This document shows, in pieces, positions 51,499 through 58,504 of a stretch of 64,000 nucleotides of DNA. Made by a program: the position numbers and the translations under genes. The notes beneath the pieces were generated by a model that was not told the origin of the DNA, ran no database searches, and saw only the letters and a list, made by a program, of their open reading frames with translations. The stretch is from Acidobacteriota bacterium (GTDB lineage Bacteria > Acidobacteriota > Terriglobia > Bryobacterales > Bryobacteraceae), in contig JAFKEE010000028.1 of the NCBI GenBank assembly GCA_017307505.1, positions 124,001 to 188,000 of the forward strand, read 5' to 3'. Within the stretch, counting starts at the first letter, position 1; every line of letters begins with the position of its first letter.

Positions 51499-52020
51499 TT
51501 ACGGGTGCGCCTCGCAGCGTGCCTTCAGCGCCTCGTTCATGGCCCGGAATCCAATCTCGGTGCGGTCCAGCATGCCGGCGAACATCGGGCCAACCAGCAG
51601 GCCATAGAAGTGTTCTGATTGCTTCAACTTAGTGTGCCCATCCCCAACCGGTTCCAGGACGAACCGGTGGTCGCCCGTGAATAGCCCAGGCACCGCCACG
51701 CCGCCCCTCCAGGCCAGTTCCCGGTTCGGGGTAATCGTGATGATGCGCGCCACGAACTCCATCTCGCTATCGCCCGGCGGACGGATGGTGACATGCAACT
51801 TCTCGTCCTCGGATAATGTGCCGGAAAGAGTCAGGATAAATGGGTTCCACATCGCGTAATTGCCGGTATCCGTCAGCATCCGCCAGACGGACTCGGGTGG
51901 GGCGGCAATCGTGATCTCGGTGTCAATCACGCGGTCCTGCTGAGTGATGCTCAGCCCCAGCCAGGCCAGGAACACCAACAGGCAGAACGCCAGGACAAAG
52001 AGTGGGAATCCGCGGGGCAT
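51499..52020 (-). CDS. membrane-anchored SRPBCC (START-like) protein
   Basis: A 173-residue protein with one N-terminal membrane helix (FPLFVLAFCLLVFLAWLGLSI) and a ligand-binding START/SRPBCC domain: IDTEITIAAPPESVWRMLTDTGNYAMWNPFI is the typical first half. The domain binds hydrophobic ligands in related proteins. It lies 69 nt before the Trm112-like gene and may be first in the operon or separate. Function unknown. Confidence 0.82.
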   Translation of the reverse strand: MPRGFPLFVLAFCLLVFLAWLGLSITQQDRVIDTEITIAAPPESVWRMLTDTGNYAMWNPFILTLSGTLSEDEKLHVTIRPPGDSEMEFVARIITITPNRELAWRGGVAVPGLFTGDHRFVLEPVGDGHTKLKQSEHFYGLLVGPMFAGMLDRTEIGFRAMNEALKARCEAHP

Positions 52021-52210
52021 GGGAGTGTCGTCCGATTATATCGGGGCGGGCCGGACGGCGGATACCGTCTGTTCCGCGGCCGGCTAAGGTGTTTTCCTGC
52101 GTTCTTCCAAGGTGGGGCCCAATCTCCGCAACCATAGGACCGTGTTACACTTGTAAGCCATTGAGGGGGCGATCTCTCAAAGAGACCGTTGGTGGGGGAG
52201 TATTGGAACA

Positions 52211-52900
52211 ATGCAGAAACTAAAGGACCTCGGCGCCAAAAAGGCGAAATCACTGGATTCCCGTCTGTTTGCTTATGCCTTGGCCGGCGGCGCCGCGCTG
52301 GTCAGCGCAACGCCCGCGAACGCCGCCATCATTCATTACAGCGGTCCGACGCTGGATACCGCCGGCAGTTCGTTCAATCTGGACTTGGACGGTGATTTGA
52401 CGACCGATTTCACCTTTCAGTCCGGAGCAGGTGACTCGGCCACAGTATTCGCCGCGTACGTTAACTTCCCTGGTGGAGGCGTGACCGGCCCGCTGGCGTC
52501 CGGGACGCCGGTCAATGCGGCCACAGCATTCAACACTACTTCGCCGTACAAGCTCGCCAAAGGCAACGTCGATCAGGCGGGTGTGGTGGGGGACAACGGC
52601 GGGGTTTACGCCATCGCCCCCAACCAGTATATGGGCCTGACCTTTGACATCAGTGGAGTGGCCCACTACGGCTGGGCGAGGCTGGAAGTCTACGGCACAG
52701 GTACTCCTGAGGTGAATGGTTTGCTTGCGCAAGGCCAGTTGAACGTCCGAGTGATGGAATACGCCTACGAGACCAATAGCCGGGCCACTATTGCTGCCGG
52801 TCAGACCACGTCAACTGTCCCTGAACCCTCTTCCCTGGCCATGTTCGCATTGGGCGCTGCCGGCCTTGCCGCCATGCGCCGCCGCAAAGCCGCCAAGTAG
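52211..52900 (+). CDS. PEP-CTERM sorting-domain protein
   Basis: A 229-residue exported protein. The N terminus (LFAYALAGGAALVSATPANA) is a signal peptide after a positively charged stretch. The C terminus is a PEP-CTERM signal: VPEPSSLAMFALGAAGLAAMRRRKAAK, with the PEP motif, a hydrophobic helix and a basic end, recognised by an exosortase (not in the window). The mature part is beta-rich, with a Ca-binding-like DLDGDLTTDF. It is probably an extracellular matrix or surface protein. It ends 2 nt before the AP-like/TPR gene, which suggests cotranscription. No ligand is inferred. Confidence 0.88.
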   Translation: MQKLKDLGAKKAKSLDSRLFAYALAGGAALVSATPANAAIIHYSGPTLDTAGSSFNLDLDGDLTTDFTFQSGAGDSATVFAAYVNFPGGGVTGPLASGTPVNAATAFNTTSPYKLAKGNVDQAGVVGDNGGVYAIAPNQYMGLTFDISGVAHYGWARLEVYGTGTPEVNGLLAQGQLNVRVMEYAYETNSRATIAAGQTTSTVPEPSSLAMFALGAAGLAAMRRRKAAK

Positions 52901-52902
52901 AG

Positions 52903-54858
52903 ATGGCGGAGCGTCTGGCTGGCAGGGTCGTGCTGGTTGGCTGGAGCTCAGCGGATTGGAAAGTATTGAATCCGCTCCTCGATGCCGGAAAACTGCCGGC
53001 CCTGCAGTCACTTGTGGAACTGGGGGTCAAGGGCCACTTGAACTCCCTAAGCCCTATGCTCTCGCCGCTGTTGTGGACCTCAATCATCACAGGCCACACC
53101 CCTGATCACCATGGAGTATTAGGTCATTTCGAGCCGGACGAAGCCACCGGCGCGGCCCGCTTGGCCTCATCCACATCCCGCAAGGTCAAAGCCCTTTGGA
53201 ATATCCTGGCGGAATCCGGCATGCGCTCCGTCGCGGTGAACTGGTTTGCCAGCCAGCCGGCCGAACCGATCCCCGGAGCCATCGTCTCCAATCTGTACCC
53301 CAAAGCACGAGCCGCGTATGGCCAGCCCTGGGTTCTGCCTGCCGCCTGCATCCACCCTCCATCGTTGAGCGAGACCCTTTCCGAACTCCGTATCCACGCT
53401 GGCGATCTGACCGGCGATGACCTCAAAGCCTTGATCCCCAAACTGGAACGAGTGGATCAGATTGCCGACAGGCGTCCTCTGACGCTCGCCGTTGCCCTGG
53501 CCGAATCCCTCACAGCCCACGCCGCAGCGACCTGGCTGATCGAGAACGAAACCTGGGATCTGCTGGCGGTCCACTACTCAGCTCTGGACCTGGTTTGCCG
53601 GACGTTCATGCCATTCCATCCGCCGCGGATGGAGAATGTGTCAGAAACGGATTTTGAGCTCTACCGGGACGTGGTCGCGACCGTGTATTGCTACCACGAC
53701 GTCCTGTTGGGCCGGCTGATGGAACTGGCCGGACCGGATGCCACCATTGTTCTTGTCTCCGAGAATGGCTTTCACTGCGATGGGCTCCGGCCCTCCGGAG
53801 TCCCCAGCCTGGACGATCCATCGAGCGGTTGGGAGCGGGGGCATGGCATCTTCGCCGCCGCCGGACCCGGTCTGCGCCAGGATGAACTGGTGTTTGGAGC
53901 CGGGTTGCTGGACATCGCCCCGTTCGTGCTGAGACTGCTGGGCTTGCCCGCCGGGCAGGACATGCCGGGCCGCATCCTGCCCGACGCCTTGGTGAATCCA
54001 CCGGAGGATGTCCGCATTCCTACCTGGGAAGCTGCGCCCGTCGACAAGCCCGAAGACGAATGGGATCGCGCCGCCGCCTTGGCGGAACTGGCCGAACTCG
54101 GCTTTGTCGAACCTGCTCCGACCGGAGAGTTCGTCCGCGTGTCGGTCCAGAACGACGGCACACTGGCGCACGTCCACATGGCCGCAGGCCGTTTTGCCGA
54201 GGCGATCCCGCTCCTGGAACGAGGGATCGTGGCGCAACCTTCCCCCGTCGCTCGAATGGCCTTGGCCCATTGCTATCAGGTTGCCGGCCGGTTGGAGGAG
54301 GCGCAAGCCTTGATCGAGGCCGTGCTGGCCGAGGACCCGAATCGATCCCACGCCTGGCTGATCAAAGCCAATCTGGCTCTCGCGGCCGGAGAGACCGAAG
54401 CGGCGCTCGAACTGCTGAACGAAGCGGGCAAACGCGGAGCAGGGAACGCCCAACTCCAACATCGGATGGGCTTAGTCTACGAAAAAATGGGCCGCTTGAG
54501 CGAAGCCGAGGAGTGCCAGTCCCGGGTCCTGGAGCTGGATCCGCAGTTCCAGCCGGCCTGCACCAGCCGGGCTCGGGCGCTTCTGGAGTTGAAGCGCAAT
54601 GACGAGGCTGCCTCCATGGCACTGGATGCGGTGAATCTGCGCTATGACGATCATTCTGCGCATCTTCTGCTCGGAATTGCTCTTGCCCGCGAAGGCCAGG
54701 CGGAGCGCGCCATCCTGGCGCTGGAGACCTCGGTCCGCTACCGGCCCACTTCCGCGGCGCATACCTGGCTGGCTTTCCTGCGGGAGAGAGCCATAGTGAA
54801 TCCGCCGGAAGCCCTGTACCACCGGCAACGGGCGGCGGAGTTGGCTGGCCGCTCATGA
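52903..54858 (+). CDS. alkaline-phosphatase-superfamily protein with degenerate active site, plus TPR domain
   Basis: A 651-residue protein. Residues 1-385 belong to the type I phosphodiesterase/AP superfamily (VGWSSADWKVL, SPLLWTSIITGHTPDHHGVLG, HGIFAAAGPGL). However, expected metal ligands are replaced: S15 for Asp in GWD, S226 for Asp and L230 for His in the YDAIDH block, E287 for Asp and N288 for His in SDHGFH; only H314 remains. The nucleophile position is probably S54 (inferred by alignment from memory). It is therefore probably a pseudoenzyme. Residues from about 405 on are TPR repeats. No signal peptide is seen. It starts 2 nt after the PEP-CTERM gene and overlaps the GNAT gene by 4 nt. 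Confidence 0.85.
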   Translation: MAERLAGRVVLVGWSSADWKVLNPLLDAGKLPALQSLVELGVKGHLNSLSPMLSPLLWTSIITGHTPDHHGVLGHFEPDEATGAARLASSTSRKVKALWNILAESGMRSVAVNWFASQPAEPIPGAIVSNLYPKARAAYGQPWVLPAACIHPPSLSETLSELRIHAGDLTGDDLKALIPKLERVDQIADRRPLTLAVALAESLTAHAAATWLIENETWDLLAVHYSALDLVCRTFMPFHPPRMENVSETDFELYRDVVATVYCYHDVLLGRLMELAGPDATIVLVSENGFHCDGLRPSGVPSLDDPSSGWERGHGIFAAAGPGLRQDELVFGAGLLDIAPFVLRLLGLPAGQDMPGRILPDALVNPPEDVRIPTWEAAPVDKPEDEWDRAAALAELAELGFVEPAPTGEFVRVSVQNDGTLAHVHMAAGRFAEAIPLLERGIVAQPSPVARMALAHCYQVAGRLEEAQALIEAVLAEDPNRSHAWLIKANLALAAGETEAALELLNEAGKRGAGNAQLQHRMGLVYEKMGRLSEAEECQSRVLELDPQFQPACTSRARALLELKRNDEAASMALDAVNLRYDDHSAHLLLGIALAREGQAERAILALETSVRYRPTSAAHTWLAFLRERAIVNPPEALYHRQRAAELAGRS

Positions 54859-55715
54859 CAGGAGCGATCCGGCGAGCGGTTGGCGCGGATTGGGCCATCT
54901 GCCGGGCCCTGCTGCCCCAAGCCTGCAGCCGCACCGATGGTCCCATCGAAGGACTGATCCTGCTGCTCGAATCCGGACCCCGCGTGGGCGGCGCTGCCGT
55001 GCTGCGGTTTGACGGACAGGACGCCTGGCTCGGTTTGACAGTCGTCCCCACAGTGCGGCGCCAGGGATTGGGTTCGTACGTCTACAATGCCGCAGTAGCA
55101 GCCGCCCGGGCCGGCGGCGCCCGGCGCCTGGTGGCCGCTTGCGACACGTTCGCCGAACCCGCCGCGGCGCCATTCCTGGAGAAGCACGGTTTTGCCGCCG
55201 TCACCCAAATTACGACGTTCGAAGCCAATTTTGCGGCCAGCGCCCCGATCCTGAGCAGAATGCGCGACGAACTGGTGGCCCGGAATCGCATTCCGGCCGG
55301 CTGGTCGGTCACCACGCTCGCCCAGGCTCCGCAGCAATCGGTGGCACAGCTGTTCGCGGAATACATCGCCCACCGGGCGGATCTGGCGGATGCTCCGCTA
55401 CGGCTCGACCAGGAAGCCGGCCGCTGGGACAGTTCGCCGGTGATTCTGGAGAACGGCCGTCCGGTGGGGGCGCTGGTCACCGAAAGAGACGGCACAACCT
55501 GGACGGTGGAAGGAAGGTTTGTCGTGCGCGGCTACCAGTCCGGCGTGGCCAACGCGATCCTGCTGGGCGCGGCCGTCGATCTGGGCGCAGCTAACCAGGC
55601 GACCTACATTCGGTTCGATTCGCGAGAAGACAATCGCGACACCCTCAAGCTGGTCCGCCGCCTGGAAGCTGTACCTCTGCGTGTGAGAACCCGGTTTGAA
55701 CGCGCTCTATACTGA
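54855..55715 (+). CDS. GNAT-family acetyltransferase
   Basis: A 286-residue protein; the first half (about 1-115) is a GNAT domain with the acetyl-CoA block VVPTVRRQGLGSYVYNAAV and a C-terminal GFAAVTQI strand. The second half (about 150-285) has a similar length and ends in RFDSREDNRDTLKLVRRLEAVPLRVRT, also GNAT-like, with a poorer CoA motif, so the protein may be a tandem. The ATG overlaps the AP-like gene stop by 4 nt. Substrate unknown; it may be an N-acetyltransferase of a small molecule or protein. Confidence 0.82.
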   Translation: MTGAIRRAVGADWAICRALLPQACSRTDGPIEGLILLLESGPRVGGAAVLRFDGQDAWLGLTVVPTVRRQGLGSYVYNAAVAAARAGGARRLVAACDTFAEPAAAPFLEKHGFAAVTQITTFEANFAASAPILSRMRDELVARNRIPAGWSVTTLAQAPQQSVAQLFAEYIAHRADLADAPLRLDQEAGRWDSSPVILENGRPVGALVTERDGTTWTVEGRFVVRGYQSGVANAILLGAAVDLGAANQATYIRFDSREDNRDTLKLVRRLEAVPLRVRTRFERALY

Positions 55716-55719
55716 AGGC

Positions 55720-56235
55720 ATGCCGAAGTGGACCTGCGTCCCCCTGGGAACCCGGCTGGTGCTGTTTGTCGAAGCCGAGGGTGAAGTGCTGCGCCGTGCG
55801 TGGTTTGCGAAGCGCGAGGACGACACGCCGCCCGGCTGGCTGGCCGAGGATCGCGACGACGCGCTGCCCGTGCTGGTGGAAGCCCGGCGCCAGTTGCGGG
55901 AATACGTTGCCGGACGGTTGCGTCACTTTACCGTACCTTTCCGTTTGGATGGCACGGAGTTCCAGCAGCAGGTCTGGCGGCAGTTGACCGAGATCCCCTG
56001 CGGCGAAGTGCGCAGCTACGCCAGCGTCGCCCAGGCCATCGGCCGGCCCAATGCCGTCCGGGCCGTGGGCGCCGCGAATGGAAGCAACCCGTTGCCGGTC
56101 TTCGTACCCTGCCACCGGGTGATCGGCAGCAACGGGTCCCTCACCGGCTTCTCTGCCGGGCTCGAAGTGAAGCGCGCGCTGCTGGCGCTGGAAGGGGCTC
56201 CGGTACAGCAGGGATTGCCGCTCGGCGAAGAGTAG
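55720..56235 (+). CDS. methylated-DNA-protein-cysteine methyltransferase
   Basis: A 171-residue O6-alkylguanine-DNA alkyltransferase starting at ATG 55720. The DNA-binding domain is FQQQVWRQLTEIPCGEVRSYASVAQAIGRPNAVRAVGAANGSNPLP and the acceptor cysteine is C131 in VPCHRV. The protein repairs O6-methylguanine by suicide transfer. It is 4 nt after the GNAT stop. A GAAGG lies very close to the ATG, so TTG 55696 is a possible alternative start. No Ada regulatory domain is present. Confidence 0.92.
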   Translation: MPKWTCVPLGTRLVLFVEAEGEVLRRAWFAKREDDTPPGWLAEDRDDALPVLVEARRQLREYVAGRLRHFTVPFRLDGTEFQQQVWRQLTEIPCGEVRSYASVAQAIGRPNAVRAVGAANGSNPLPVFVPCHRVIGSNGSLTGFSAGLEVKRALLALEGAPVQQGLPLGEE

Positions 56236-56239
56236 CCGC

Positions 56240-58504
56240 CTACTCGACCGGCGGCAGCACGCGCTGGATCAGGTCCAGCAAATTGGGTTCGTCCGTCAAA
56301 AACAGGGTCATCTTCACGGCTTGTACTTTGCACGCCTGGGCCAATTCCGGGTCGATGTTCAGCAGGTCTTTCTCCGTCGTCAGGAGCAACTGCGAGCGCA
56401 TCGCCAGCGGCTGAAGATCCTGTTCCGTGTAGTGATGGTGATCCGGAAACTCCCTGAAGAACGAGATAGTTATGCCAAGTTCCTGAAGAGTTCGCTTGAA
56501 GCTCTCCGGCTGGCCCAGGCCGCAGAAGGCGCCGACGGTGGTGCCCTCCGGGATAGCCGGCGCCTCGGCGCGGGCGTGGGCCAGGGAGATCGGGACCTGC
56601 CGGTTGTGGCGACGGATCTCGTCGATCAGCCCCTGGTAGGTGCGGCCGGGTTCGGTGCGGGTGAGGACCACCGCCTGGGCCCGGTCCAGGGCAGAGAACG
56701 GCTCGCGCAGTGTGCCCCGCGGAGGCAGCCCGTTGCGATAGGGGTCGATTGCATCAATGAGGACGATGTCCAGATTGCGCCGCATGCGCCAGTGCTGGAA
56801 CCCGTCGTCCAACACAATTACATCGAAGTTGTACAGTTTGGACAGCGCCCAGCGGGTGGCCTGCCGGTCCGCGCCGATGCCCAGCGCGGCGTGCCCGGCC
56901 CGCAGGATCAACTGGGCTTCCTCGCCTGTGCGTTCGACCGTGGCATGATCGCCCGGCAGGAGCGTGGTGACGGGTTCGGTGGTGGCTCGCTTATAGCCGC
57001 GGGTGAGTACCGCCGGACGGTGCCCAAGCTCCACCAGCCGTTCGCAAAGCCACAAAACGAAGGGGGTTTTGCCCGTTCCACCCATGGCCAGGTTGCCCAC
57101 GCTGAGGACCGGCTGCGGCGGAAGGTCCACGCGGAAGTTCTTCAGGCGGCGATCGACTGCGACTCCGGCTCGCCACAGCCAGCCCAATGGGTTGAGGCCC
57201 GCCGGCCGGATTACGGCGGCATCATAGGCATGGACCACGGCCTGGACGGCGCGCCCGGTGGCTCCACGGCGTTCGTCGGAAAGACGGCGGCCCAACTCGC
57301 CGATGGAGCGGTCGTACAGCAGGCGGCCGACGGCGACAGCCAGATCCGCCGGATCCTGGACGGTGACCACGGCGCCGGCGGCTCGGAAATCCGCGGCAAT
57401 CTCGGAGAAGTTCTCCATGTGCGGGCCGGTGACCACGGGCACACCGAAGGCAGCGGGCTCCAGGATGTTGTGGCCGCCGCGGTGGGGGAAGGTTCCGCCC
57501 ATGAAGACGACGTCGGCGACCCGGAACAACCCGCTTAATTCGCCAATGGTGTCCACCAGCAGGACCGGCGCCGGTTCCAGGTTCAGGGTAGAGCGCCGCT
57601 GGAACTGGATGCCGCGGGCCGTCAGTTTGGCGGCCGCCTCCTCGAACCGTTCCGGACGGCGGGGCACCAGGATGAGGAGCAGGCGCGGGAAGCGCTCCCT
57701 CAGTAATTCGAAACTGTCGAGGACAATGTCGTCTTCGTCGGGATCGCCCGGTTCGGCGGGCGGCATCGTGGAAGCCGCGATCCAGATTCGTTCGGGTTCG
57801 TTTTGTTTCAGCCAGTCGCGGACCACGGGAGCGATAGAGGTCGATTCCGGGTCAAAGTCATACTTGAGGTTTCCTGAGGCAATTGCATGAGGAGCGCCGA
57901 GTTGTTCGTAACGGCCACTGGCAATTGCGTCCTGGGCGAGGATGGCATCGGGCCAGCCAAGAGCGGCCTGGAAGAACCAGCGGAACCGCAGGTACTTGGG
58001 CAGCGCCTTGTCGGAGATCCGCCCGTTGACGACCAGCAGCCGCGCTCCAGTCCGGCACGTATCTCGATAGAGATTGGGCCAGATCTCGGTCTCCATGACG
58101 ATGACGACCGAGGGCTTCAACGCGCGCAGGACCCGGCGGACCGCAAAGCGGTAATCGATGGGGGCATAGAAAACTCCGTCGGCGAGCCCGGCGAGTTTCT
58201 GCTCCGCCATAGCTCGCCCGGCCAGGGTGGTGCAGGAAACGTAGATCGGGGCGAAGGGTAATTCCTGCTTGAGCCGTTGAAGCAACCCGACCGCTGTGAT
58301 GGCCTCGCCGACGGAAACGGCGTGCAACCAGATGGCTCCGGGCACCGTCCGGTGCAGGGAGTCCGGCAGGAAGCCGAAGCGCTCCATCACCTTGTTGGAA
58401 TAGGCGGCGTTCCGGTGGATGCGGAGCGCGAGATACAGTAGGAGAAATGGAAAGGCGAGGGCCTGTAGGGTCCAGTAGAGGAGATAAATGAGTTTGGCCC
58501 GCAA
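56240..58504 (-). CDS. WaaA-LpxK fusion: Kdo transferase joined to lipid A 4'-kinase
   Basis: A single ORF of 754 residues. Residues 1-430 are WaaA/KdtA (GT30): a hydrophobic anchor near the N terminus, the catalytic-base motif SVGEAI (E67), METEIWPN, SGNLKYD and GGTFPHRGGHNILEP. Residues about 435-754 are LpxK: P-loop GGTGKT at 475-480, DDGFQH, and a C-terminal FREFPDHHHYTEQDL block. The two are separate genes in most Gram-negative bacteria. WaaA adds Kdo to lipid IVA and LpxK phosphorylates the precursor at the 4' position, successive steps, so fusion is plausible. The LpxK part appears to lack its own membrane anchor. I start at TTG 58504; the site overlaps the divergent gene by 17 nt. Confidence 0.85.
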   Translation of the reverse strand: MRAKLIYLLYWTLQALAFPFLLLYLALRIHRNAAYSNKVMERFGFLPDSLHRTVPGAIWLHAVSVGEAITAVGLLQRLKQELPFAPIYVSCTTLAGRAMAEQKLAGLADGVFYAPIDYRFAVRRVLRALKPSVVIVMETEIWPNLYRDTCRTGARLLVVNGRISDKALPKYLRFRWFFQAALGWPDAILAQDAIASGRYEQLGAPHAIASGNLKYDFDPESTSIAPVVRDWLKQNEPERIWIAASTMPPAEPGDPDEDDIVLDSFELLRERFPRLLLILVPRRPERFEEAAAKLTARGIQFQRRSTLNLEPAPVLLVDTIGELSGLFRVADVVFMGGTFPHRGGHNILEPAAFGVPVVTGPHMENFSEIAADFRAAGAVVTVQDPADLAVAVGRLLYDRSIGELGRRLSDERRGATGRAVQAVVHAYDAAVIRPAGLNPLGWLWRAGVAVDRRLKNFRVDLPPQPVLSVGNLAMGGTGKTPFVLWLCERLVELGHRPAVLTRGYKRATTEPVTTLLPGDHATVERTGEEAQLILRAGHAALGIGADRQATRWALSKLYNFDVIVLDDGFQHWRMRRNLDIVLIDAIDPYRNGLPPRGTLREPFSALDRAQAVVLTRTEPGRTYQGLIDEIRRHNRQVPISLAHARAEAPAIPEGTTVGAFCGLGQPESFKRTLQELGITISFFREFPDHHHYTEQDLQPLAMRSQLLLTTEKDLLNIDPELAQACKVQAVKMTLFLTDEPNLLDLIQRVLPPVE

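Follow-up and report, generated by a model that had tools for sequence, protein, structure and literature searches.

A candidate alkaline phosphatase-superfamily pseudoenzyme with tetratricopeptide repeats, encoded next to an exported protein in Bryobacteraceae

What does a protein of the alkaline phosphatase (AP) superfamily do once nearly all ligands of its metal centre have been replaced? The question is raised by a gene, here called A, on contig JAFKEE010000028.1 of an Acidobacteriota bacterium of the family Bryobacteraceae (assembly GCA_017307505.1). The whole stretch analysed, 64,000 nucleotides from positions 124,001 to 188,000 of the forward strand, is referred to as the window, and all coordinates below are counted from its first letter. 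Gene A encodes an AP-superfamily domain followed by tetratricopeptide repeats (TPRs) and lies directly downstream of gene B, which encodes a protein with export signals. The domain has lost five of six metal ligands, is under purifying selection and is predicted to keep its fold, and the linkage of A to B recurs in several phyla. We give about an even chance to the reading that A is an AP/TPR pseudoenzyme that binds rather than cuts and serves the co-encoded exported protein B.

Results

A two-domain protein with a predicted alkaline phosphatase fold

The gene and its two domains are placed as follows:

52903 to 54858, + strand: gene A, degenerate AP-superfamily/TPR protein of 651 amino acids, open frame from the ATG at 52903 to the TGA at 54858
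52903 to 53997, + strand: degenerate AP-superfamily domain, residues 1-365, from the PF01663 match and VIA-align
54145 to 54852, + strand: TPR superhelix, residues about 415-650, from TPR models and the predicted structure

An initial annotation, made by eye from the sequence, had described this frame as an AP-superfamily/TPR protein missing nearly all metal ligands. The architecture holds: the frame is open, residues 9-290 match the Pfam type I phosphodiesterase model PF01663 at 65.2 bits (cut-off 23), and TPR models match the C-terminal part from about residue 420. The structure model that the annotation had called for was built with AlphaFold2 and contains two confident domains (pLDDT 85.9, pTM 0.86), with the fold predicted to be intact. 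Its AP domain superimposes on ENPP1 (VIA-align Z 26.4, rmsd 3.1, 280 residues) and on the Xanthomonas nucleotide pyrophosphatase/phosphodiesterase (NPP) 2gsn (Z 25.7, rmsd 2.9, 269 residues), and in a Foldseek search with the model, consensus TPR proteins and the OGT TPR domain ranked first, with the Xanthomonas NPP next. The first 60 residues hold no signal-like hydrophobic stretch, and A is therefore probably cytosolic. No NCBIfam model exceeded its cut-off among the matches listed for A, nor for L114, a relative with an unaltered active site.

Five of six metal ligands are replaced

We aligned the AP domain of A with 158 relatives from the family, the order, the phylum and 80 named loci; four of these relatives are genes that were fetched twice. 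The named loci are the best 80 of 523 found with an alignment query, and a search for named relatives by the window protein alone confirmed none. Three fragments (L064, L078 and L079) were excluded from the conserved-column count and from both trees described below, and L065 (from genome G046) was omitted from subsequent tables, as its AP domain did not align reliably. Across the 144 canonical rows, seven catalytic columns are nearly invariant (D15, S54, D229, H233, D287, H288 and H311), which from family knowledge, matched by order and spacing, we take to be the di-metal ligands and the nucleophile. The same columns hold D, T, D, H, D, H and H in four AP-superfamily proteins that are more distantly related. 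At these columns A reads S15, S54, D229, R233, E287, N288 and E311:

52945 to 52947, + strand: Ser15 in an Asp ligand column (D in 149 of the 158 relatives)
53062 to 53064, + strand: Ser54 in the nucleophile column, kept (S in 150 of 158)
53587 to 53589, + strand: Asp229 in a ligand column, kept (D in 147 of 158)
53599 to 53601, + strand: Arg233 in a His ligand column (H in 146 of 158)
53761 to 53766, + strand: Glu287-Asn288 in Asp-His ligand columns (D in 146 and H in 149 of 158)
53833 to 53835, + strand: Glu311 in the last His ligand column (H in 145 of 158)

Only D229 is left of the six ligands of the di-metal centre. The nucleophile, which the initial annotation did not mention, is retained as the Ser of a Thr/Ser position: in a profile search against the PDB, S54 aligned with the Thr of phosphonoacetate hydrolase 3szy, which is Ala in 3t02.

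The annotation had regarded its motif register as secure. It was right in assigning S15, E287 and N288 to Asp, Asp and His columns, and wrong at the other three of its six positions. S226 and L230 had been placed in Asp and His ligand columns, but column 226 varies (D 90, E 31, N 13 and others, of 158), as does column 230 (H 109, T 23 and others), and the true DxxxH pair is 229/233 (D229 kept, R233 a loss). H314, listed as a kept ligand, stands in a column that is mostly Phe or Tyr (61 and 49 of 158), three residues beyond the conserved His column 311, where A has Glu. With the register at 229, 233 and 311 corrected, five ligands are still absent, so that the overall claim of ligand loss survives and the alternative that ligands were shifted rather than lost was rejected.

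The replacements are not spread evenly over the domain. Among the 43 columns that are at least 97% conserved in the canonical rows, A is changed at five of the seven catalytic ones versus three of the 36 others (Fisher P = 0.001), and this concentration in the active site argues for more than drift. Outside the catalytic columns, 37 of the 40 columns conserved to at least 95% are kept. Judged from these residues, A should have lost metal-dependent phosphoryl transfer.

The altered domain is under purifying selection

Whether the substitutions are fixed in relatives, a check proposed with the initial annotation, can be answered from an orthologue in the same genus. This protein, L018 (genome G202), matches A at 81% over the AP part and 80% overall, and with S15, D229, R233, E287, H288 and E311 it shares four of the five losses. 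By the NG86 method, nonsynonymous divergence (dN) between the two is 0.105 in the AP part and 0.130 in the TPR part, and synonymous divergence (dS) is 0.827 and 1.015, respectively, which gives a dN/dS of about 0.13 in both domains. The similar ratios indicate that the dead AP domain is as constrained as the TPRs: A is under purifying selection and is not decaying. A thus combines lost catalytic residues, purifying selection and a fold that is kept by prediction. The pseudoenzyme proposed in the annotation is supported by these three lines, but not by its readings at 226, 230 and 314.

Further degenerate A proteins occur in Bryobacterales: L031 (G200), L077 (G227), L058 (G154), L067 (G244) and, in a genus designated g23, L049 to L052 and L062. 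Each has lost four to seven of the seven catalytic residues; the fragment L062 has only five readable columns, all of them changed. H233, D287 and H311 are lost in every one of these rows as well as in L018 and the window protein. In an unrooted tree of 45 rows, a single branch (support 100/99) splits degenerate from canonical proteins. A rooted tree was built from 54 rows, namely 50 of 159 A rows (L050 among those left out) and four outgroup rows, after removal of 11 columns at or near the active site; L052 and L062 were excluded from both trees. Here eight degenerate rows from Bryobacterales group in a single clade (82/94), whose sister is L169, a partly degenerate protein of Schlesneria (81/92). 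Placing the window lineage (the window protein plus L018) with the canonical rows, as independent loss in that lineage would have it, is disfavoured by the approximately unbiased (AU) test at P = 0.016, for a group that was chosen post hoc, after the tree had been seen, and with long branches present. A single origin of the ligand loss, followed by its retention, is likely from these sequences but not proven.

The Schlesneria AP/TPR protein (L169, 5986-8073) has only two catalytic changes, D15N and H311N, and may represent an early step of ligand loss.

A recurs beside an exported protein of several phyla

The proposed partner is encoded immediately upstream, and A starts 2 bases after its stop:

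52211 to 52900, + strand: gene B, exported protein of 229 amino acids and proposed partner, from Pfam tail models and homologues beside AP/TPR genes

B consists of an N-terminal signal-type helix, a beta-rich core (DLDGD...YGW...AYE...AG) and a C-terminal PEP-CTERM tail. The YGW and AY motifs of the core are invariant in 13 aligned rows. The B model has a pLDDT of 77.9 and no PDB match at E <= 0.001, and Pfam detected only tail models on seven B proteins, leaving the core uncovered; on the B proteins scanned with NCBIfam, likewise, only tail models exceeded their cut-offs. Four of the seven have a PEP-CTERM tail (the window protein, L025 and L067 from Acidobacteriota, and L172 from Halioglobus), two, both from Bacteroidetes, have a type IX secretion system (T9SS) sorting tail, and the B protein of L110 has neither. 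The genome that contains the window has three exosortase-family matches over cut-off.

Neighbourhood comparison showed that B homologues recur beside both dead and canonical A genes. A profile of the B core alone located B no more than 3 kb from A at 58 of the 80 named loci (51 of 73 when the seven loci that supplied the profile are set aside), at a distance of <=500 bp between stop-to-stop frames in 49 of them, and 74 of the 87 B matches lie on the strand of A. None of 22 control loci had B, the controls amounting to 82.7 kb in total versus 816 kb for the 80 loci and including partly overlapping stretches of the window's own genome (L002-L016). B is also the commonest neighbour family, with a 56-member blastp cluster in 37 loci (next best, seven loci), and all 56 members are B-core matches. 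Among 237 genomes of the family, B (E <= 1e-4) is present in 20 of the 36 with A (E <= 1e-40) versus three of the 201 without (P = 2e-16, or 1e-12 when the five genomes that contributed to the B profile are excluded; the genomes are not independent). Two of the three genomes with B alone, G046 and G154, contain a weaker A-like match, and 19 of 25 B matches in the family genomes have, by their coordinates, an A match no more than about 6 kb away. The A-B linkage spans several phyla, and A shows both features of the B-linked AP/TPR subfamily, an AP domain followed by a TPR array and an adjacent B-type gene. The initial annotation had proposed binding or signalling with the TPRs for partner recognition; such a role we still infer only, and the recurrent pairing with exported B makes B a candidate partner for A.

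One locus, L134, contains five copies of B.

Neighbouring acetyltransferase and related genes in the same genome

Downstream, A is followed by a third gene whose ATG overlaps the TGA of A by 4 bp (ATGA):

54855 to 55715, + strand: GNAT-family acetyltransferase (PF00583, 49.7 bits)

B, A and the GNAT gene look co-transcribed from their spacing, and promoter and terminator scans over 51900-56300 gave nothing useful. The order B-A-GNAT also occurs in G202. In a comparison of 15 stretches including the window, a GNAT homologue adjoins A in G202 and in G074, where A is canonical, and among the named loci homologues occur in two of 80, at L154 and at L169, whose A is sister to the degenerate clade. 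A general role for GNAT as conserved partner was rejected on these counts.

We also considered that A might regulate an active paralogue in its own genome and rejected the idea, as a search of that genome with full-length A turned up no second gene of this type. Apart from A itself, the search gave 15 matches, all in the TPR part except for one 25% stretch at residues 8-82. The genome has 32 PF01663 matches, some of them in a cluster with several long open frames (G000:C24:47105-53461; loci L016 and L210-L213) that is related to A only through the short 25% match.

Discussion

Evidence against a binding role tied to B, and rival explanations

Several observations weigh against a pseudoenzyme dedicated to B. 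L018 alone has the change set of A yet keeps His288, which leaves position 288 unsettled. Seven of nine genomes of the genus, some of them incomplete, have no match to A at E <= 0.001, and the gene is therefore probably dispensable. Support for the degenerate clade is moderate and some of its branches are long. The linkage has gaps as well: within the DNA covered, no B was found in 22 of the 80 named loci, and it was not detected in 27 of 39 other Bryobacterales A loci either (12 have it), these being mostly loci with only about 1.5 kb of flank and including three fragments. In G154 there is no B beside A. At five g23 loci, where A has lost every readable catalytic residue, the upstream PEP-CTERM-type genes match a wider B profile; the core-only profile hit a single one of them, at E 0.03 at best, and gave no match at the remaining four. 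A clear B core adjoins A in five of 11 degenerate loci, window included. Finally, a cytosolic A and an exported B need not touch.

In g23, the A genes of L190, L191 and L195 have lost all seven catalytic residues and lie downstream of PEP-CTERM-type genes that have themselves diverged strongly, as though active site and partner had changed in concert.

The strongest competitor, which we consider rather unlikely although it carries real weight, is that A is a TPR adaptor or scaffold in an unrelated cytosolic process and is linked to B by shared regulation only. It fits with the absence of a signal segment from A and the presence of a signal-type helix and an export tail in B; TPR arrays serve as general-purpose binding modules, and GNAT, with homologues beside A in G202, G074, L169 and L154, could be the functional partner. 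Such a process would have to be reconciled with an A-B link that holds over several phyla and with either type of tail, and GNAT homologues are too sparse in the named loci to take the place of B. An improbable alternative is that the site has been rebuilt into an altered centre, made up of S15, S54, D229, R233, E287, E311 and the newly gained H314, that uses a different metal, a single metal or no metal at all. In its favour, S54 and D229 persist, most of the substituted residues are polar or charged (E287, E311 and R233), all seven residues are identical in L018, and the fold is predicted to be intact. Against it, L018 differs at 288, and in other degenerate members several of these positions are occupied by Pro, Ala, Gly, Ile, Leu or Val, a pattern to be expected of a site released from constraint. 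That A is a decaying gene with no function is very improbable. The patchy distribution (two of nine genus genomes with a match) and the long branches among degenerate members would fit decay, but frames of 651 and 656 amino acids are intact in two genomes, the order B-A-GNAT is kept in G202, and nearly all of the other conserved columns are retained; pseudogene decay was rejected on the low dN/dS.

A possible two-gene surface-protein module

If A is a binding pseudoenzyme serving B, it would retain the AP fold together with the nucleophile Ser and a single ligand Asp while performing no metal-dependent catalysis. In the cytosol A might handle B, or a phosphorylated ligand tied to the production of B, before export, with the TPR superhelix and the former catalytic cleft holding B or the ligand. 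In canonical relatives the pairing would presumably support phosphoryl transfer or hydrolysis acting on B or within its pathway; the degenerate clade may have retained binding alone.

More broadly, and tentatively, with a probability somewhat short of even, A and B may be an undescribed two-gene surface-protein module in which a cytosolic A is dedicated to B whichever sorting tail (PEP-CTERM/exosortase or type IX secretion) the host employs, and in which A became a pseudoenzyme in one Bryobacterales clade and the pair was kept. Were this true, client binding rather than phosphoryl chemistry could suffice as the core role of A, and a comparison of dead and active members would tell whether that role for B is chemical or structural. 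Several members of the degenerate clade, A included, keep the partner, an exported family found across several phyla with different sorting signals, and the pair offers a first handle on a widespread AP/TPR family. Pseudoenzymes are a known kind of protein; what is new here is the A-B tie of the AP/TPR family. Among the papers listed in literature searches, with most subscription papers outside their coverage, none described the AP/TPR family, this pseudoenzyme or the A-B pair.

Comparison with known systems

The NPP enzymes (PF01663; Xanthomonas NPP 2gsn, ENPP1 and ENPP3) resemble A in fold (Z 25.7 to 26.4) and motif order, and they have the nucleophile column and one ligand Asp in common with it. 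A differs from them in the replacement of five of six ligands and in the additional C-terminal TPR superhelix, and its lack of a signal-like segment sets it apart from NPP3, described as a membrane-bound glycoprotein (PMC6052110). Canonical AP/TPR proteins such as L114 (Bryobacteraceae), L112 (Planctomycetota), L141 (Bacteroidota) and L172 (Halioglobus) are closer, with the same architecture, 46-51% identity over the AP domain and a B homologue nearby, but they keep all seven catalytic residues, and many are longer, with more repeats.

Two other systems connect comparable domains with exported proteins, and we treat both as analogies rather than as evidence of membership. PorX, an AP-fold protein tied to type IX secretion (PMC10951265), resembles A by analogy only, in that an AP-fold domain (PglZ) is tied to an exported-protein pathway; unlike A, it is an active two-component response regulator, in which a CheY-like domain plus a three-helix bundle take the place of TPRs beside the AP domain. 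PrsT of the PEP-CTERM/exosortase system is, like A, a TPR protein linked with PEP-CTERM proteins, but A scores 52.9 bits with the PrsT equivalog model TIGR02917, against a cut-off of 312.2. In the work by Haft et al. (PMC1569441), where the words phosphatase and phosphodiesterase do not occur, the TPR domains of the PEP-CTERM-system TPR protein are suggested as possible adaptors that guide protein modification.
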